Numbered from the stretch's first letter, positions 7,032 to 45,219 are shown. The stretch is DNA of 46,896 nt from Candidatus Omnitrophota bacterium (GCA_023247235.1 JAHFGW010000004.1:1-46896); one strand, 5' to 3'. Translations and numbers: made by a program. Notes: generated from the letters alone by a model not told the origin.

Positions 7032-8192
7032 TCATCGGCGACCCAGCGAACGCGCGGAGCGTATCTCGAGCAATCTCTTGCGGTCGGCCTGAGCCAGCGC
7101 CATCCGCAGATCGGAGGACCGGCTGGCCTTCAGGATCAGCGCGCAGGCGACCAGGTTCATCACGGTCGCGGTGCCCCCGTAGGAAATGAAGGGGAGCGGC
7201 AGGCCCTTGGTCGGCAACAGGCCGGTGACGACCGCCATGTTGACCAACGCTTCCATGCCAATCAGCGCCACCAGCCCGCAGATGAGGTACTTGCTGAACG
7301 CATCTTCGGCCAGCATCGCCAGGCGGAAGCCGCACAGGACGAGCAACGCGAAGAGGGCCATGATGGCGGTCGTGCCGAGCAACCCCAGCTCCTCGCCGAT
7401 GATCGCGAAGATGAAGTCCGTGTGGACCCCCGGCAAGTAGAAGAGCTTTTGGAGCGAGCCGCCCAGGCCGTGGCCGATGAGGCCGCCCCGGGCGAGCGCG
7501 AAATAGGACTGCAGGATTTGATACCCGGCGCCGCCCGGATCTTGCCAGGGATTCAGAAACACCAAGAGCCGCTGCCGTCGATATTCGGCGCCCGCCACGA
7601 GCAAGACGAAGACCGCGGCAGCGACCGCGGCGACCAGGGCGACATGTTGCCAGCGCGCGCGGGCCACCAGGAGCATCACCAAGACAGTCCCGCCCATCAC
7701 GACGGCGGTGCCCAAATCCGGCTGCAGCAGCACCAGCCCGGCTCCCACCCCTGTCACCAGCAAGGGCGGCAGCACGCCCTGCCAGAAATCGCGGATCCAG
7801 GCCCGCTTGCGGGCCATGACATCGGCGAGATACAGCACCAGCGCCAACTGGGCGATCTCGGACGGCTGGAAACTCCAGCGGCCGAGCCGAAACCATCGGC
7901 GCGCCCCGCCCGCCTCATGACCGAGCAGGAAGACGATCACCAACAAGCACAGGCTCCCGAACACGATCCATTTCGCCCAAGCCCGGACCGTCGGATACGG
8001 CACCAGCAGGCACCCCATGCCCAGGCCCAGGCCCAGCAAGGTCGCCACGACATGCCGGGTGAGGAAATAGAAGTCCTGCCCATACGTCTGCCGCCCGGCC
8101 ATGGCGCTGGCGGAATACACCGCCACTAGACCAAGCCCCACGAGGGCTGCGATGACCACCAGAAGCACCTGCCGCAAGTGCTGCGCCCTCAT
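7032..8192 (-). CDS. ftsW: SEDS-family peptidoglycan glycosyltransferase FtsW
   Basis: 386 aa polytopic membrane protein with about ten hydrophobic segments. FtsW polymerises lipid II at the septum together with FtsI. Family marks: YGQDFYFLTRH near the N-terminus, the loop GLIGHGLGGSLQKLFYLPGV then HTDFIFAIIGEELG, and the signature NMAVVTGLLPTKGLPLPFISYGGT split across the last membrane segments. The ATG at 8192 overlaps the murD stop as ATGA, preserved even though the murD tail carries a repeat insertion. Septal role inferred from its place in the dcw cluster rather than a rod locus. Confidence 0.94.
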   Translation of the reverse strand: MRAQHLRQVLLVVIAALVGLGLVAVYSASAMAGRQTYGQDFYFLTRHVVATLLGLGLGMGCLLVPYPTVRAWAKWIVFGSLCLLVIVFLLGHEAGGARRWFRLGRWSFQPSEIAQLALVLYLADVMARKRAWIRDFWQGVLPPLLVTGVGAGLVLLQPDLGTAVVMGGTVLVMLLVARARWQHVALVAAVAAAVFVLLVAGAEYRRQRLLVFLNPWQDPGGAGYQILQSYFALARGGLIGHGLGGSLQKLFYLPGVHTDFIFAIIGEELGLLGTTAIMALFALLVLCGFRLAMLAEDAFSKYLICGLVALIGMEALVNMAVVTGLLPTKGLPLPFISYGGTATVMNLVACALILKASRSSDLRMALAQADRKRLLEIRSARSLGRR

Positions 8193-9655
8193 CTGTACGA
8201 CAGCGCTCCAGGCTCGTGGTTCGCGGCTCGTGGCTCGTCCTCTTGCCTCGAGCCTCCAGCCTCCCCGGCCCGCCCCTGACTAGGGCCGGGGCGGGCGAGC
8301 CTCCAGCCCACCGGCGATGGGTCCGTTCCGTTTAGCCGGTGGACGATGGCCTTGAACGCGCGGCCGCGCTCCTCAAAGTCCCGGAACATGTCGAAGCTGG
8401 CGCAGGCTGGCGAAAAGAGCACCGTATCCCCCGGGTGCGCCAGCGCCATCGCCTCGCGGATCGCCGCCTCCAGCGTCGAGGCTTCGCGCAGCTTCTCGCT
8501 CGGCCCCAGCACCAGGCGCAGCCGCGCTCGCGACTCGCCGATCAAGACGATGCCGCGAATCCGCTCTTCGCGAAGCACCATCGCCAGCGGCTCGAAGTCC
8601 AGCCCTTTGTCGCGTCCGCCCAGGATCACCACCAGGGGACCGCGCGCTTGCTGCAGCGCGAACACGAGGCTGTCGGGCGTTGTCGATTTGGAGTCGTTCA
8701 CATACGTCACGCCATGGATCCGCCCCACCGGTTCGCGCCGGTGTTCCAGCCCGCGGAACGTGCGGATGACCTGCCAGGTCAGCGGATCCGGCACGCCCAA
8801 GATCCGGCAGGTTTGCAGCACGGCCTGGGCATTGTCCCCAAGCGCCGTCTGCGTGTGCTCGCTCAGCCGCGCCCAGGGCGGATTGGTCCGGTTCTCCCCG
8901 AACCACACCACCTGCGCCCGCACGCCCTTGGCCAGCCCGGCGACCAGCGGGTCTCGCCCGTTGAAGACCGCCCAGTCGCGCGCGGTCTGCTGTTGGAACA
9001 AGCGGGCCTTCGCCTGGATATAGGCCTCGCGCTGACCGTGCCGATCGAGGTGGTTGGTTCCCAGGTTGAGCAGCACGCCGATCGCGGGCCGGAAGGTGTC
9101 GCACCGGATCAACTGAAACGAACTCACTTCTACCACCGCCAGGCTCTGGGGCGTCAGCTGGTCGATCACGGCGCTGAAGGGTAGGCCGAGATTGCCGCAG
9201 GCGATAGCCGGCCGCCCGGTGGCGCGCACGACCTGCGCGAGCATGGTGACGACGGAGCTCTTTCCGTTGGTCCCGGTCACCGCGACCACGGACGCAGGAC
9301 AGAACCGAAAGGCCAGCTCGATCTCACTGATGATGGGCAGCCCGCGGCGCGCGGCCCATTGAATCGGCGCGACGAGTTCGGCCAAGCCGGGGCTGACGAC
9401 CACCAGGTCGCTGCGCTCGATCAGGGCTTCCGTGTGGCCGCCCAGCTCGACGGTTTCAACCCCCTGCGCGCGCAGCGCGGCGCCGGCTTCTTCAAGCGCC
9501 GCATGCCGCCCGGCATCCGTGACGCTGACGCGGCATCCTGCGCGGCAGAGGAGCCGCGCGGCCGCCTGGCCGCTGCGGCCCAGGCCCACGACGGCGACCC
9601 GACGCCCTTTCCATGGAGCGCCGGCCGCGCCGTGGCGTAGGCTGCGCGAGGTCAT
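8189..9655 (-). CDS. murD: UDP-N-acetylmuramoylalanine--D-glutamate ligase MurD, repeat-extended C-terminus
   Basis: 488 aa against the usual ~450. Second Mur ligase, adding D-glutamate. Visible: VAVVGLGRSGQAAARLL at the N-terminus, P-loop VVAVTGTNGKSSV, the LGTNHLDRHG block, YVNDSKSTTPDS, and the C-terminal FSPACASFDMFRDFEERG followed by AFKAIVHRL, where homologues normally end. The remaining ~45 residues are encoded by a heptanucleotide array (8211-8265) and a GC hairpin (8263-8296) and look like an in-frame extension. ATG at 9655 overlaps the mraY stop as ATGA; the longer upstream frame is the complement of mraY coding. Confidence 0.93.
   Translation of the reverse strand: MTSRSLRHGAAGAPWKGRRVAVVGLGRSGQAAARLLCRAGCRVSVTDAGRHAALEEAGAALRAQGVETVELGGHTEALIERSDLVVVSPGLAELVAPIQWAARRGLPIISEIELAFRFCPASVVAVTGTNGKSSVVTMLAQVVRATGRPAIACGNLGLPFSAVIDQLTPQSLAVVEVSSFQLIRCDTFRPAIGVLLNLGTNHLDRHGQREAYIQAKARLFQQQTARDWAVFNGRDPLVAGLAKGVRAQVVWFGENRTNPPWARLSEHTQTALGDNAQAVLQTCRILGVPDPLTWQVIRTFRGLEHRREPVGRIHGVTYVNDSKSTTPDSLVFALQQARGPLVVILGGRDKGLDFEPLAMVLREERIRGIVLIGESRARLRLVLGPSEKLREASTLEAAIREAMALAHPGDTVLFSPACASFDMFRDFEERGRAFKAIVHRLNGTDPSPVGWRLARPGPSQGRAGEAGGSRQEDEPRAANHEPGALSYR
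8211..8265. repeat. Bipartite heptanucleotide array encoding the MurD tail
   Basis: On the plus strand: GGCTCGT, GGTTCGC, GGCTCGT, GGCTCGT (8211-8238), spacer CCTCTTG, then CCTCGAG, CCTCCAG and a partial CCTCC. Same family as the arrays at 42530-42591 (gspJ) and 43895-43974 (gspG). On the minus strand it is read through as MurD residues EAGGSRQEDEPRAANHEPGA. Confidence 0.9.
8263..8296. repeat. GC-rich hairpin adjoining the MurD-tail array
   Basis: CCCCGGCCC (8263-8271) pairs with GGGCCGGGG (8283-8291); alternatively GCCCGCCCC (8268-8276) pairs with GGGGCGGGC (8288-8296). The two 9-bp perfect foldings are mutually exclusive. Lies within the MurD C-terminal extension and resembles the hairpin at 3550-3574. 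Confidence 0.75.
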
Positions 9656-10635
9656 GGGAGTGCCGTGAAACCCAAGGCGGCCAGGAGCAGGCCGGCAATC
9701 CAGAAGCGCACGATCAGTTTCGGCTCGCTGACCCCGCCCAGGTGAAAATGATGGTGCAGCGGGGCCACGCGGAAGATGCGCCGCTTGTTGCGCCACTGGT
9801 ACGAGGCGACCTGCAGGATCACGGAGATCGCCTCGCACACAAACACGCCGCCGATGATGAGCAACCATAGGGACGCGCGCGAGAGCAGCGCGATGGATCC
9901 CACCGCCGCGCCCAAGCCCAAGGCGCCGACATCGCCGAGAAACACCGAGGCGGGAAAGCTGTTGAACCACAGGAATCCCACGCAGGCCCCGGCCAGCCCT
10001 GCGCACCATGGGACCAGGGCACGAGAGCGCGGATCCGCCAGCGCCCAGATCCCCAGGCCCATCAGCGCCAGCGCGACGCAGCCCGTGGCCAAGCCGTCCA
10101 TGCCATCCGTGAGGTTCACGGCATGCGCGCAACCCGCCACGACCAGCATGGCGAATGGAATCCAGCCCCAGCCCACGTCCAGCGTGCGGTGCACCCACGG
10201 CAGCTCGACCACGCGCCCGCGAGGATCGGCCAGCGCCCCGGCGCCGACCCACGCGCCCACACAGAGCGCGATGGCCAGTTTAGGGAGCGCGGGAAGGCCC
10301 GAGGCGTTCGGCCGACGGAATTTCAGCAGATCATCCAGGAAGCCGACGCCGCCGATGAGCAGGACCGCGGACAGCACCAGCCACCCATCGGGATGGCTTA
10401 CGCCGCCGGCGAGGATGGCCATGGCGCCGCCCACGCCCAACAGGAGGAGGCCGCCCATGGTCGGAGTGCCCTGCTTGGCTTGCTGGTAGGGTAACAGCGG
10501 CGGGCAATCTTCGTAGCGGGCCGGCTGCACGCACCTGGCACGGGCCAGCCATCGCGTGGCCTGGCGGCCGATACACAGACAGACCCCCGCACTGCCCAGG
10601 AAGACCAGGGCAGCCTCGCGTAACGCGTGCGTCGT
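9652..10635 (-). CDS. mraY: Phospho-MurNAc-pentapeptide transferase MraY (non-canonical start)
   Basis: About 327 aa. Polytopic inner-membrane enzyme that transfers phospho-MurNAc-pentapeptide to undecaprenyl phosphate, giving lipid I. Visible: KQGTPTMGG, the aspartate motif NLTDGMDGLATG, FLGDVGALGLGAAVGS, and the C-terminal HHHFHLGGVSEPKLIVRFW. The first ATG/GTG/TTG in frame after the murF stop is GTG at 10530, which would delete the first membrane segment (EAALVFLGSAGVCLCI). The frame is open back to the murF stop; GGAG ends at 10642 and the candidate starts at usable distance are ATA (10636-10638) or ACG (10633-10635). I place the start at 10635 tentatively. ATGA overlap with murD. Confidence 0.85.
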   Translation of the reverse strand, partial: TTHALREAALVFLGSAGVCLCIGRQATRWLARARCVQPARYEDCPPLLPYQQAKQGTPTMGGLLLLGVGGAMAILAGGVSHPDGWLVLSAVLLIGGVGFLDDLLKFRRPNASGLPALPKLAIALCVGAWVGAGALADPRGRVVELPWVHRTLDVGWGWIPFAMLVVAGCAHAVNLTDGMDGLATGCVALALMGLGIWALADPRSRALVPWCAGLAGACVGFLWFNSFPASVFLGDVGALGLGAAVGSIALLSRASLWLLIIGGVFVCEAISVILQVASYQWRNKRRIFRVAPLHHHFHLGGVSEPKLIVRFWIAGLLLAALGFTALP

Positions 10636-40877: not shown

Positions 40878-41930
40878 TCAGCTTTCCCGCCACGCGAGAA
40901 TTTTCGGAGGTTCGGTCTCGTTCGCGGAGCGCTGCACCAGCGCTTCCACGCGCGCTTCGATCGGCGGGTTGAGCAGCCGTCCCGTCGCGTTCACCGTGAA
41001 GAGGTGCGAGGTGACGCCAAACTGATTTTGAAGCAGGGTTTGCTCGTCATCGTCCAACACGATGCCGCAGCTCTCCTGGGCCGTCGGCACAATCTCCGCC
41101 TCTGTCTTGAAGATCGTGCCGCTTGCCCGGCAGGCCCGCAGGCTCTCCGCGGTCCCTTCACGCATCCCCATCGCCGCGAGGACCTCCGGGCTGACCGTGT
41201 TGATGTTCAGCTTGTCGGGGACGCTCAGCGGCGCCACGCTGGCCAGCCGATAGAGGAGCGCAAACGGCTCCGCCTCAAGACCTGGGATCGCCAACAGCTC
41301 TTCGGGAGCGACGAGCGGGCCGTTCTTGGCCGCATACGGCGGCTGGGCTCCTTCATCCACCTCCAAGCCTTCTGCGCCGAAGGGGTCGGTGTTGGCATCC
41401 AGATAATCGGCGATCCGCGGGGCCGCCTCCGGCGCAGTCACCAAGCGGCCCAGGGTCTTGTACCACAAGTTCCCCGCATCCGACTGGACTCTGTTCAGCG
41501 GCAGTTTGCGCTCTTCATCCACCATGCGAATCTCAATCCGCGCCCCCGGGCCTGAGGGACCCGGCTGCTCGGGCAGATCGACGGCCCAGACCGCGGGGTC
41601 CTCGCTGTCGGGAAACTGCGCCCAGTCATCGCCCAGCCAATCATACTGGCCTCCACCCTCTTCAGACGTCTTGGCGTCATCGGCCAATCGCTGGAGCGCC
41701 AGGTACACCCCGCTGCGCGCCAGGACCCTCGCCTGCTCGCGTCCGACCCGGTACTTCGTCAGGCGCACTTCCGTGGAGAGGAACCGGCCGATCGCCACCG
41801 CCAGCACACTGAGGATCGTCACAAGCCATAGCGTCACGATCAGCAAGGACCCGGTATCGGGGACCCGTCCATTTTTTCTGTCCGAGAGCCAATGGAAAAA
41901 AGAGACGCGTCCCCGATCAAGGCGATTCAT
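40878..41930 (-). CDS. gspK: Minor pseudopilin GspK, leader encoded by a repeat
   Basis: 350 aa. Tip subunit of the pseudopilus. Prepilin cleavage site G/SLLIVTLWLVTILSVLAV with no Glu5, as expected for GspK, then a large domain with DEERKLPLNRV, ANTDPFGAEG and NINTVSPEVLAAMG matching GspK's helical insert. ATG at 41930 overlaps the gspJ stop (ATGA). The leader is 27 residues, and residues 5-25 are encoded by the hairpin repeat at 41856-41917; no start codon lies between repeat and cleavage site. Confidence 0.88.
   Translation of the reverse strand: MNRLDRGRVSFFHWLSDRKNGRVPDTGSLLIVTLWLVTILSVLAVAIGRFLSTEVRLTKYRVGREQARVLARSGVYLALQRLADDAKTSEEGGGQYDWLGDDWAQFPDSEDPAVWAVDLPEQPGPSGPGARIEIRMVDEERKLPLNRVQSDAGNLWYKTLGRLVTAPEAAPRIADYLDANTDPFGAEGLEVDEGAQPPYAAKNGPLVAPEELLAIPGLEAEPFALLYRLASVAPLSVPDKLNINTVSPEVLAAMGMREGTAESLRACRASGTIFKTEAEIVPTAQESCGIVLDDDEQTLLQNQFGVTSHLFTVNATGRLLNPPIEARVEALVQRSANETEPPKILAWRES
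41856..41917. repeat. REP-like hairpin within the GspK leader coding region
   Basis: ATCGGGGAC (41856-41864) and GTCCCCGAT (41909-41917) are perfect 9-bp arms; an inner TTTTTTC/GAAAAAA stem is also possible. Same family as 40808-40863 by its edges. Confidence 0.8.
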
Positions 41931-42622
41931 TCGGCGGCCTTGGGCAGCGTGCCCGTCGGAATCCACACGAGTTCCCGAAATGGCCGGCCCGGCTCAAACC
42001 GGCCTCCCAGTGCGACCAAGCGAGGAATCTCCTTCGTGCTGGTCCAGGTGTCGCGCCATTGCAGCGCCCCGGCCGTCCCGGAGGCGGCATACGCATACTC
42101 GACGGCGAGCTCGGCACAGCCGGCCGCCAAGAGCACCGGCGTACCCGCCTGTCGCGCCATGACGTCCCCGATCGCCTGGCCCGTCCGCCACAGGCCCTGC
42201 ACGCCGTCCTGCTCGGCGCAGCGATAGGTGACGTACTCCACCGCTCCGGGCCTGGCCGCCGTCGTGGGACGCACCGTCACCCACCGCAGCTCCGTGTGGC
42301 CAAAATACGGCGCCACGACCGCTTCCTCGCGCGGGTCATACGCGATCGCGTTGACAAGCTCCCGGCGGAACTGATCCAAGGCGAAGTGCCGCTCGCGCAG
42401 CGTCTCCGTCTCCCCGGTGACCCGCCGCCAGACGCGCACCCCCCCCTGCAGATGCGTCCCCAGGCCGACAAACAGGACGGACATGATGGTCGCGGCGATG
42501 ATCAGCTCGATGAATGTAAAACCCTGAGAGCTCGTGGCTCGTGGCTCGTGGTTCGTGGCCTTTCCTCGAACCTCCAGCCTCGAGCCTCGAGCCTGGCTGG
42601 CACTCTGCCCCGAACCTACCAT
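41927..42622 (-). CDS. gspJ: Minor pseudopilin GspJ, leader encoded by a heptanucleotide array
   Basis: 231 aa. Prepilin site G/FTFIELIIAATIMSVLFVGL with Glu5. The C-terminal domain (ETLRERHFALDQFRRELVNA, ELRWVTVRPTT, LAVEYAYAASG) is typical of GspJ, which joins GspI and GspK at the pseudopilus tip. ATG at 42622 overlaps the gspI stop by 7 bases. The leader is 34 residues, unusually long; residues about 11-31 (ARGSRLEVRGKATNHEPRAT) come from the array at 42530-42591. Confidence 0.87.
   Translation of the reverse strand: MVGSGQSASQARGSRLEVRGKATNHEPRATSSQGFTFIELIIAATIMSVLFVGLGTHLQGGVRVWRRVTGETETLRERHFALDQFRRELVNAIAYDPREEAVVAPYFGHTELRWVTVRPTTAARPGAVEYVTYRCAEQDGVQGLWRTGQAIGDVMARQAGTPVLLAAGCAELAVEYAYAASGTAGALQWRDTWTSTKEIPRLVALGGRFEPGRPFRELVWIPTGTLPKAAE
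42530..42591. repeat. Bipartite heptanucleotide array in the GspJ leader
   Basis: Plus strand: GCTCGTG three times and GTTCGTG (42530-42557), six-base spacer, CCTCGAA, CCTCCAG, CCTCGAG, CCTCGAG (42564-42591). Four units on each side, 7-bp period. Opposite orientation to the copy in gspG. Confidence 0.92.
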
Positions 42623-43071
42623 GAATCCGGCACCCACTCTGAGGGCCAGAGCGCCCACAGCCGGACTTGCGGGCCGGCGCCCTCCACCGGATGGACGGCG
42701 AAATTGACTTGGCTCACCGGCACCCCCCCAGCAGCTCCCTGCGGCGCGGCCGTGATCTGCCAGCCGTACGCTTCATGTGGGGCCTCGAACGTCCCCTCGC
42801 CAGACCGTGCCGTCGGCTGGGAGGCCGCGCGCGCCGCCTCCACTTCCGCCAGCAGCGACCGGCTGAGCGAGAGCAGCACATCCGTGGCTTCCATCGTCTT
42901 CAACGCCCGCAGGTGCCCCGAAAAGCTGCGGCTGATAAACACCAGGCCCAGGCCGATCACCGCCGCGGAGAGGACCGCTTCAACGAGCAGCAGGCCTCGG
43001 CCTACCCGCCGGGCCGCGGCGGGCCTACGATCCTGACCCGTCGGTAAGGGTGACTCGGCTTGTGGTCGCAT
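42616..43071 (-). CDS. gspI: Minor pseudopilin GspI
   Basis: 151 aa. Prepilin site RRVGRG/LLLVEAVLSAAVIGLGLVF with Glu5, then a helix (LRALKTMEATDVLLSLSRSL) and a small C-terminal domain ending ALWPSEW. Initiates the pseudopilus tip with GspJ/K. ATG at 43071 overlaps gspH by 47 bases and gives a 26-residue leader; no closer start is seen. Confidence 0.82.
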   Translation of the reverse strand: MRPQAESPLPTGQDRRPAAARRVGRGLLLVEAVLSAAVIGLGLVFISRSFSGHLRALKTMEATDVLLSLSRSLLAEVEAARAASQPTARSGEGTFEAPHEAYGWQITAAPQGAAGGVPVSQVNFAVHPVEGAGPQVRLWALWPSEWVPDSW

Positions 43072-43567
43072 GCACGGTCACAGTATAGGCACGCCCGCGA
43101 TGGCTCACCACCAGCGTGGCCGCTTCGCTCGTGCCATCAGGAAAAAAGGTGACGCGCTCCACCGGCACCTCGTCCCGGGTCAGCGCGACGTCGATGGCCT
43201 CAGACGCCACGCGCCTGTGGGTGCCCCGCTCCTCAAGCGGCAGCGGTTCTCCCTCGATCGGGTCGATCTCCAACCGCGCCTGCCTGGCATCTGGGTCCCA
43301 GACCCAGGCGATCGGCTCGCCTTGGGTCACCGCGCGCTCGTGCGCATACCGGAAGAGTTGCGCCAAGGCGAAGGCGGTCTGCTCAGTCTGAAGCCGCGCG
43401 GCGGTCCCGGTGAAGTTGGGCACCGCCGCCACAAGCAACATGGCCAGCACGACGGTGACCAGCACCACCTCGACGAGGGTAAACCCAGGGTGGGCGGGCT
43501 TAGTCTTGCCAATTGCCGATGTCGTCGTTGCCCACTCTGCCGTCGGGGCCCAGCGAATAGAGCTCAT
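43025..43567 (-). CDS. gspH: Minor pseudopilin GspH (start uncertain)
   Basis: About 180 aa. Prepilin site PAHPG/FTLVEVVLVTVVLAMLLV with Glu5, then FALAQLFRYAHERAVTQGEP and LARLEIDP-type strands of the GspH/FimT domain. No ATG, GTG or TTG lies between the gspG stop and the cleavage site. The nearest in-frame start is ATG at 43567, overlapping gspG by 68 bases and giving a 28-residue leader; ATT near 43510 would give a 10-residue leader, the usual length. Confidence 0.8.
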   Translation of the reverse strand: MSSIRWAPTAEWATTTSAIGKTKPAHPGFTLVEVVLVTVVLAMLLVAAVPNFTGTAARLQTEQTAFALAQLFRYAHERAVTQGEPIAWVWDPDARQARLEIDPIEGEPLPLEERGTHRRVASEAIDVALTRDEVPVERVTFFPDGTSEAATLVVSHRGRAYTVTVHATTSRVTLTDGSGS

Positions 43568-43991
43568 AGTCCTGCTGGTGCTCCGACTGCATGCTATAGA
43601 TGTAGGAGCGGTGCCAGGGATCTTCCGGCAAGCCCTTTTTGAGATAGGGGCCATTCCATTTCCCTTCCTCCACGTCCGCAGGCGGCTCGCGCCGTACCAG
43701 CTCCTCCAACCCATCGGGATAGCGGCCCATGTCGAGCTCATACAGATCCAGGGCCAACCCGATCGCGGCGATGTCCGCCCGCGCCCGCGCGGTCTTCGCT
43801 TGCTCGGTGCGTCCCGTCAGCCGCGGCACGACCATCGCGGCCAGCACCCCGATAATGATGATGACCAACATGAGCTCAATCAGCGTGAAAGCACGCTCGA
43901 GGTTCGAGGCTCGAGGCTCGAGGGAAAGACCCGAACCCTGGTCGCCACGAGCCATGAACCACGAACCACGAGCCCGTTTTGCGCGACTCAT
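43500..43991 (-). CDS. gspG: Major pseudopilin GspG, leader encoded by a heptanucleotide array
   Basis: 163 aa. Main pseudopilus subunit. Cleavage site LERA/FTLIELMLVIIIIGVLAAMV; alanine replaces the usual glycine at -1. Mature part shows the GspG marks RADIAAIGLALDLYELDMGR, YPDGLEELV, GPYLKKGLPEDPWHRSYIY and SLGPDGRVGNDDIGNW with the calcium-site residues. ATG at 43991 overlaps the gspF stop (ATGA), so the 34-residue leader is likely real; residues 6-33 derive from the array at 43895-43974. Confidence 0.93.
   Translation of the reverse strand: MSRAKRARGSWFMARGDQGSGLSLEPRASNLERAFTLIELMLVIIIIGVLAAMVVPRLTGRTEQAKTARARADIAAIGLALDLYELDMGRYPDGLEELVRREPPADVEEGKWNGPYLKKGLPEDPWHRSYIYSMQSEHQQDYELYSLGPDGRVGNDDIGNWQD
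43895..43974. repeat. Bipartite heptanucleotide array in the GspG leader
   Basis: Plus strand: GCTCGAG, GTTCGAG, GCTCGAG, GCTCGAG (43895-43922), a 24-base spacer, ACGAGCC, ATGAACC, ACGAACC, ACGAGCC (43947-43974). The GCTCG and CGAGC cores of the two blocks can pair. Reverse orientation relative to the gspJ copy. Confidence 0.92.
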
Positions 43992-45196
43992 TGGACGACC
44001 AGCCCAATCTGGAACACGGGCAGTAACATGGCCAGGACGATGAACATGACGACGCCTCCCACGCCTACGAGCAGAATCGGTTCCACGATGGCGGTGAGCC
44101 CCTTGATCGCCCGGTCGACTTCGCGCTCATAGGTCCCGGCGACTTTCAGCAGCGCCGCGTCGACCGTCCCGGACTCCTCGCCGACGGTCACCATGTTGCT
44201 GACGAAGGGCGGAAATTCCCCGCTATTGGCCAAGGCGACCGCGATGCTCGCCCCGTCGCGAACCGACTCTTGGACCTGGACGACCGCGCGCCGCAAGACC
44301 GAATTCGAGACGCTCTGCGCGACCACATCTAACGCCTGCAAGACCGGCACGCCCTGGCCGACCATGACGCCGAGGTTCCGCATGAAGCGCGACGTCTCCA
44401 GCTTGCGCGCCAGCGTGCCCACGCCGGGCAGCACCAGCACGAGCCGATCCACCACGGCGCGACCCGCAGCACTGTTGCGCCACCGGCCGAACCCCAGCGC
44501 GAACAGCAGCAGGCCGCCGAGCAGCGCCCACCACCACCGGGTCAACACCCGGCTGACCGCCAGCAGCATGCGCGTCGGCAGCGGCAGCAGCTGGCCGGAC
44601 TCAATGAAGACTTGCGACAGCGTGGGGATCACGTAGGCCAGCAGAAAGACGGTCATCGCCACCGCGACCGCGAGCACAAAGAGCGGATACGCCGAGGCGG
44701 TCAGCAGCCGGCTCCTCAGCTCGGCGTCGTTCTCGCCCAGCTCCGCCAGGCGGGCCAGCGCCTGCTCCAGGCCTCCGCCCACCTCCCCGGCCCTCACCAT
44801 ATTCATGTAGAGCGGCGAGAACACGGTGGGATGATCGGCGAGGGTGTCGCTGAGCGCGCGGCCGTCGCGCACGCCGGCCGTCAGGCCGTCGATGACTCGG
44901 CGCAGCGCTGGATGGTCCGTTTGCTTAGCGAGGAGGGTGAGTGCATTCAGCAGCGGCAGGCCGCCGCCCAGCAAGTCCGCGAGCTGCCGCGTCGTTTGCG
45001 CGAGTTGGCGCCCGGAGATGCGGCGACGGGCGAAGGTCCTCCGGCCGCCGCGCGCGCCGGTGACCTCCATGATGCTCAGCGGAAAGACGCCTTGACTGCC
45101 CAGGCGGTTGATGGCGGCGGCCTCGTTCTCCGCCTCGATGGTGCCCTCGAGGATCTTGAGCGCGCTGTCGCGCGCTCGGTAGGCGTACTGGGCCAT
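43988..45196 (-). CDS. gspF: T2SS inner-membrane platform protein GspF
   Basis: 402 aa, standard. Visible: MAQYAYRARDSALKILEGTI start, two repeated helical domains (ISGRQLAQTTRQLADLLGGG then LPLLNAL; MRNLGVMVGQGVPVLQALDV), three membrane segments, and VTVGEESGTVDAALLKVAGT plus the closing IVEPILLVGVGGVVMFIVLA. It anchors the GspE ATPase. ATG at 45196 chosen because the conserved MxxYxYRARD begins there. Confidence 0.95.
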   Translation of the reverse strand: MAQYAYRARDSALKILEGTIEAENEAAAINRLGSQGVFPLSIMEVTGARGGRRTFARRRISGRQLAQTTRQLADLLGGGLPLLNALTLLAKQTDHPALRRVIDGLTAGVRDGRALSDTLADHPTVFSPLYMNMVRAGEVGGGLEQALARLAELGENDAELRSRLLTASAYPLFVLAVAVAMTVFLLAYVIPTLSQVFIESGQLLPLPTRMLLAVSRVLTRWWWALLGGLLLFALGFGRWRNSAAGRAVVDRLVLVLPGVGTLARKLETSRFMRNLGVMVGQGVPVLQALDVVAQSVSNSVLRRAVVQVQESVRDGASIAVALANSGEFPPFVSNMVTVGEESGTVDAALLKVAGTYEREVDRAIKGLTAIVEPILLVGVGGVVMFIVLAMLLPVFQIGLVVQ

Positions 45197-45204
45197 CGGT
45201 GCTG

Positions 45205-45213
45205 AGTATAACA
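45205..45213 (-). promoter_or_regulatory. Possible extended -10 promoter before gspF
   Basis: Minus strand TGTTATACT (TGnTATAAT type) lies in the short gspE-gspF gap, 8 bases before the gspF ATG. No good -35 is present, so an internal promoter is only a possibility; it would yield a near-leaderless gspF message. Confidence 0.3.
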
Positions 45214-45219
45214 CACCGA

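Follow-up and report, generated by a model that had tools for sequence, protein, structure and literature searches.

Prepilin leaders of an Omnitrophota type II secretion operon as probable sites of selfish repeat insertion

The window analysed here is a 46,896-nucleotide stretch of DNA from a Candidatus Omnitrophota bacterium (GCA_023247235.1, JAHFGW010000004.1:1-46896). It carries a type II secretion system (T2SS) operon on its minus strand, with the gene order E-F-G-H-I-J-K-L-M. The leaders of the pseudopilins GspG, GspJ and GspK, which precede the predicted prepilin peptidase sites, are largely encoded by short repeats. We consider these leaders likely sites of insertion of short selfish repeats, retained since the reading frame survived. 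The window belongs to a metagenome-assembled genome (MAG) of 1.34 Mb in 46 contigs (G000, 91% complete), whose closest named relatives are Candidatus Omnitrophota MAGs, of groundwater origin in most cases; G, C and L numbers are our handles for genomes, contigs and loci. Every genome in the comparison is a MAG, genes were called with a simple script, start codons and cleavage sites are predicted, and thresholds were set in the course of the analysis. Within G000, the sequence read comprises the stretches around the elements and the gsp loci.

Repeat-coded leaders of GspG, GspJ and GspK

The leaders and their repeats occupy the following positions.

43890..43991, minus strand: GspG leader, 34 codons, MSRAKRARGSWFMARGDQGSGLSLEPRASNLERA followed by mature FTLIEL; T2SSG and N_methyl matches
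43945..43973, minus strand: GTG arm of the gspG element (CTCGTGG heptads, one degenerate), 26/29 against the consensus arm
43924..43944, minus strand: spacer of the gspG element, resembling the spacer of another copy (L093:2996-3076)
43895..43923, minus strand: GAG arm of the gspG element (CCTCGAG heptads), 28/29 against the consensus arm
42521..42622, minus strand: GspJ leader, 34 codons, MVGSGQSASQARGSRLEVRGKATNHEPRATSSQG followed by mature FTFIEL
42530..42592, plus strand (opposite to the gene): gspJ paired-heptad element, with GTG arm 42530-42558, spacer 42559-42563 and GAG arm 42564-42592
41850..41930, minus strand: GspK leader, 27 codons, MNRLDRGRVSFFHWLSDRKNGRVPDTG followed by SLLIVT; T2SSK_1st match
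41856..41917, minus strand: REP-like hairpin in the gspK leader (-33.2 kcal/mol, z -5.5), from a half-site family of ~12 in the genome
40808..40864, no strand assigned: intergenic copy of the gspK-type REP-like hairpin between gspK and gspL

The original prediction that repeats encode most of these three leaders holds base for base, and both repeat families recur across the genome. GspG residues 7-33 are encoded by the element core (43973-43895), and 5 nt separate the end of the GAG arm from the first mature codon. GspJ residues 11-31 are encoded by an element (42592-42530) whose orientation relative to the gene differs from that in gspG. The gspK gene starts with the ATG at 41930, and the hairpin (41917-41856) encodes residues 5-25. 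Overlaps with the upstream gene are indeed kept, as the gspG ATG (43991-43989) overlaps the stop of gspF and the gspJ ATG at 42622 overlaps that of gspI. The leaders have the form of class III signal peptides, being hydrophilic and ending in G or A ahead of a hydrophobic stretch, often with E at +5. N_methyl matches support this assignment for GspG and GspJ, and GspK is assigned by sequence, with S at +1 and without E at +5.

A second family, distinct from the heptads, includes the gspK hairpin; its half-site has 12 matches in G000 against 0 for the control, and two full hairpins lie in the window. In size, stem and dispersal, both the hairpin in gspK and the copy between genes match repetitive extragenic palindromic (REP) sequences and REPINs. 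They differ from them in that the gspK hairpin codes for part of a protein and in that a search of the ~91% complete G000 for the Y1 transposase of the REP-associated type (RAYT; Y1_Tnp, PF01797) gave no match. We therefore name this dispersed hairpin family REP-like only, and a RAYT is rejected as the mover.

Three neighbouring genes complete this part of the operon.

43988..45214, minus strand: gspF, stop overlapped by the gspG start (ATGA)
43025..43540, minus strand: gspH, leader without repeat in G000
42616..43071, minus strand: gspI position, leader without repeat; no Pfam match

A canonical start near the cleavage site is not obvious for gspH; an in-frame ATG lies deep within gspG, and a rare start codon is possible.

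The paired-heptad element and its protein hosts

The pattern GGYTCGWGGYTCGWGG has 79 exact matches in the 1.34 Mb of G000 against 0 for the reversed control, and these matches make up ~35 elements of fixed two-arm anatomy. The consensus is G(CTCGTGG)4, a spacer of 3-35 nt and (CCTCGAG)4C, with a total length of ~60-95 bp. Each of the two inverted arms holds about four 7-bp units, the spacer between them varies, and most arms match at 25-29 of 29 positions. One position in each heptad typically distinguishes the arms (GTG in one, GAG in the other), and the hairpin is therefore a run of 6-bp blocks interrupted by mismatches. The gspG element is predicted to fold as RNA at -50.8 kcal/mol (z -4.0). 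The spacer is identical in two copies that share a contig, and the gspG spacer is similar to that of a copy on another contig. These shared spacers suggest that the element may be copied as a unit. At L093, the element at 7775-7855 occupies the gap next to lysS, and an identical one at 8031-8111, 256 bp away, lies within the gene.

Read in all phases of both strands, the sequence of the element unit contains no stop codon. The search of G000 used a single heptad pattern, and the count of other families there is thus a lower bound. The reversed control GGWGCTYGGWGCTYGG has 6-18 matches each in G003, G016, G023 and G054; other heptad families therefore exist, and the control is no null in those genomes.

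The element also lies in frame in unrelated proteins. Its hosts in G000 include GlyS (N-terminal), LysS, PheT, UvrA, RluD, IspF, RpiB, a KdsB-PyrG-KdsA fusion, radical-SAM proteins, MurD (C-terminal) and ValS, which is hit four times. These proteins are uncleaved and mostly essential, and the elements are placed in their loops and ends. Copies were located in the following genes.

8204..8261, plus strand: further paired-heptad copy in the window, in frame at the C-terminus of a MurD-like gene (8189-10252, minus strand)
L085:2980-5259: GlyS with in-frame element
L093:7880-9370: LysS with in-frame element
L096:10970-12238: PheT with in-frame element
L097:2273-5491: UvrA with in-frame element
L099:2416-5268 (G000 C27): ValS with four separate in-frame heptad elements

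The four ValS loops hold other inserts in some genera and are short in others (L206-L217). The fusion at L103:2564-5428 is a 954-residue frame made up of a KdsB-like part, which holds the element, and CTP synthase and KdsA-like domains.

Within genes, 18 of 20 elements are oriented to encode GSRLEAR/HEPRATS and not GSWLVAR/SLEPRAS, and the two exceptions, gspG and GlyS, are both N-terminal. This 18:2 ratio compares with 6:8 in gaps (p=0.006). The bias implies that the inserts are translated and selected on the coded peptide, and it is the best sign of such filtering.

Leaders of related operons and enrichment at prepilin genes

The comparison covers 21 gsp loci, 20 from the same family and one from the same order. 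Repeats encode the gspG leader in 13 of them, comprising 11 heptad-coded leaders, one octad and one REP-like hairpin, and the remaining 8 have no repeat. The heptad-coded leaders use eleven different heptads or heptad pairs. By genus, the units are GGYTCGW, GAAACNN, GCGACAA, AAATCCA, GCCCCTT, GCCCCAC and GCCCCYT, with GCGGART, CATAGTC together with ATTCCGC, GAGACNN and GACTCAA in further genera. The operon of G023 alone contains six different heptads, and paired convergent arrays are present across G000 and the relatives' loci. The gspG leader of G021 (L066, ~2390-2470) is built from the eight-base unit GAACTGAA in a two-arm layout like that of the heptad elements. Across 166 kb of family gsp regions, 53 period-7 segments were found where 1.2 are expected; other periods match the null or exceed it only marginally, 14 being a harmonic.

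The median length is 33.5 residues for repeat-coded prepilin leaders (n=20) and 7.5 for those without a repeat (n=14, p=1e-6). In the 8 loci of the family and near relatives that lack the repeat, the gspG leader has 5-12 residues, and leaders of relatives without repeats have 4-12. Repeat-coded leaders span 12-61 residues, so the 34 residues shared by GspG and GspJ, which had been pointed out as a possible regularity, are a coincidence, and an exact length by design is rejected. The repeat-coded leaders are hydrophilic and nearly all positive, and their median net charge of +2.5 resembles the +2 of short leaders. This match offers no support for the proposal that long basic leaders alter membrane targeting. 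G or A is kept at -1, the distance from the array end to the first mature codon is 0-11 nt in most leaders, and no array was seen inside a mature pilin across the gsp loci of relatives.

An empty and a filled site occur in one genus, where gspG begins MTQK-RG in G002 and MTQK-(27 residues)-RTG in G024. The G002 gene start reads ATGACGCAGAAG^CGGGGG, and G024 has 81 nt extra at ^; the final 913 nt of the flanking gspF are 91% identical. A weakly supported tree of GspF and GspG implies six or more changes of the repeat state. Protein-level conservation of the leader residues in relatives, which would have told against the original prediction, is absent, and a conserved functional leader peptide is rejected, as the leaders are unrelated between genera.

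Elements are enriched at prepilin genes within the family. They lie in the leader slot of 13/41 recognised prepilin genes and near the 5' end of 16/166 other genes (p=8e-4), a conservative contrast because the 166 include prepilins that the motif missed. A hand count of junctions gives 19/41 for gspG and gspJ against ~11/90 for non-prepilin starts (p=4e-5, with approximate denominators). In G000, 13 prepilin genes exceed the Pfam cut-off and 4 of these are abutted by an element, including two on contigs other than that of the window (C33:14278 and C11:37336); for the 4 elements together, p is ~1e-4 assuming 1250 genes. A fifth G000 prepilin, at C33:13824, has a different heptad array. Most arrays elsewhere sit in gene junctions.

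Comparable leaders built from different heptads are present at L136 and L137, from distant Omnitrophota, and at L191, from a Verrucomicrobia MAG (MKIPIANRQSPIANSRRA followed by FTLVE). In L136 (~2005-2047), the heptad array ATGTCAA supplies the start codon of the gspG leader. In several genera, a MerR-like small gene downstream of gspM carries differing heptad arrays at its C-terminal end, at the junction with the next gene (L068:8023-8051, L073:5645-5677, L079:7832-7856 and L084:7894-7916).

Selfish insertion, its alternatives and known systems

These repeats are probably akin to Rickettsia palindromic elements (RPE), being in-frame, frame-insensitive selfish repeats kept where proteins tolerate insertion. 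As 7 and 3 have no common factor, a 7-bp array codes for one cyclic seven-residue peptide in all frames. The unit here is also free of stops whichever phase is read, so nearly any frame-preserving insertion reads through. Selection could then retain copies where 20-30 hydrophilic residues are tolerated, at gene junctions, protein ends, surface loops and above all the prepilin leader. Prepilin leaders are hydrophilic, length-variable and cytoplasmic, and prepilin peptidase cuts after G or A (PMC10191384). Constraint on such a leader would fall chiefly on the start codon and the final 1-3 residues, and prepilin peptidase would then remove it. The gspG and gspJ starts often overlap the upstream stop, leaving no intergenic gap, and the leader is thus a free slot. 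A long leader would be neutral in this setting and presumably cleaved at the normal site.

The idea that the leaders are safe landing sites is supported. Different heptads fill the same leader across genera, relatives without repeats have short leaders, an empty and a filled site can be paired, and mature pilins are free of arrays. Cleavage itself is not required, since uncleaved proteins carry the element in frame.

Several results weigh against selfish insertion aimed at permissive leaders. The family's gspI leaders have no array and gspK has about one heptad array. Beyond the family, an enrichment of prepilin slots is rejected (4/168 compared with 11/539). Arrays without stops in all frames are found in 13/19 leaders and 12/21 gaps, which is not a significant difference. 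Divided by three, the lengths of in-gene elements leave no constant remainder (7/6/4), so either flanks and spacers were adjusted or insertion is imprecise. Furthermore, no transposase was identified in the 91%-complete genome, Y1_Tnp included.

Alternatively, each array could have arisen in place by 7-nt slippage and fold-back copying, with permissive sites accumulating arrays that are not mobile. Heptads do vary between sites within one genome and across genera, and they are known to be over-represented among bacterial tandem repeats, for which polymerase slippage has been proposed (PMC4679880, PMC4692102). This origin is nevertheless unlikely, as the ~35 G000 copies share one heptad, the same T/A arm difference and sometimes a spacer, and the G002/G024 pair differs by a clean insertion.

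Less probable still is a function of the long leaders in targeting by the signal recognition particle or Sec, in tuned processing, or in translational control through an mRNA hairpin at the gene start. Their hydrophilicity, nearly universal positive charge and kept -1 residue would fit such a role, as would the strong gspG hairpin and the targeting of gspG and gspJ far more often than gspI and gspK. Yet 8/21 gspG leaders manage with 5-12 residues, the peptides are unrelated across genera, and unrelated housekeeping proteins hold the same element. It is very improbable that the repeats are non-coding intergenic elements with translation beginning downstream, despite the junction position of most other arrays, because no ATG, GTG or TTG separates the array from the cleavage site in the gspG, gspJ and gspK leaders of G000 and in most leaders of relatives, an in-frame start overlapping the upstream stop exists, and the in-gene orientation bias implies translation.

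Selfish in-frame insertion has its nearest parallel in RPE (Ogata 2000, 2002, cited in PMC10969869 and PMC6649704), which are small palindromic repeats in frame in unrelated genes, with a recurring peptide and a protein that is not disabled. The Omnitrophota element is likewise a dispersed palindrome with ~35 inverted two-arm copies, lies in frame in unrelated and essential genes, and is missing from relatives' orthologues, as in gspG and some ValS loops. RPE are ~150 bp long with conserved family sequences, whereas the arms here are 7-bp arrays that vary by genus and the recurrent target is the cleaved prepilin leader. We liken them as a kind of element and claim no membership by descent.

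Heptameric repeats are also known from Xanthomonas (GGGAATC) and Nostoc as dispersed arrays of ~4 7-bp units; ~70 Xanthomonas sites are two nearby convergent arrays (PMC4692102). The Omnitrophota loci share the excess of 7-bp units and the paired convergent arrays. In the parts of that report drawn on here, 7-11% of the Xanthomonas arrays are intragenic, the focus is quadruplex formation, and in-frame insertion at matching protein sites is not described. The TAACTGA heptamers of Beggiatoaceae (PMC4679880) and the short tandemly repeated repetitive (STRR) heptads of heterocystous cyanobacteria are similarly short direct 7-bp arrays near gene starts. They differ in being direct only, mainly intergenic just upstream of start codons, and interpreted as regulator sites (PMC4679880). 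By analogy, the Omnitrophota element appears to work like an RPE and to be built like the heptameric arrays of cyanobacteria, Beggiatoaceae and Xanthomonas. No report of leader-located repeats, Omnitrophota heptads or prepilin leaders as insertion targets was found in the open-access literature, most subscription papers being outside this scope.

We tentatively speculate that paired 7-bp arrays might form a mobile class defined by architecture and not by sequence. Coding in every frame could permit life in essential proteins, and the same permissive positions (prepilin leaders, ValS loops, protein ends) could be refilled by unrelated members across genera and even phyla.

The repeat-coded leaders are a family-wide set of natural insertion mutants, through which genomes reveal how freely class III signal peptides vary in sequence. 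Their constant features are the context of the start codon, a brief tail ahead of the G or A at -1, hydrophilicity and a mostly positive charge. Signal peptide and start-site predictions will misjudge repeat-bearing genes, and the repeats mark protein loops that tolerate insertion. The elements probably extend in-frame selfish DNA in essential genes beyond Rickettsia. Selfish DNA would thus settle where proteins can accommodate additional residues, in this groundwater bacterium and, through unrelated repeat sequences, in many of its relatives.

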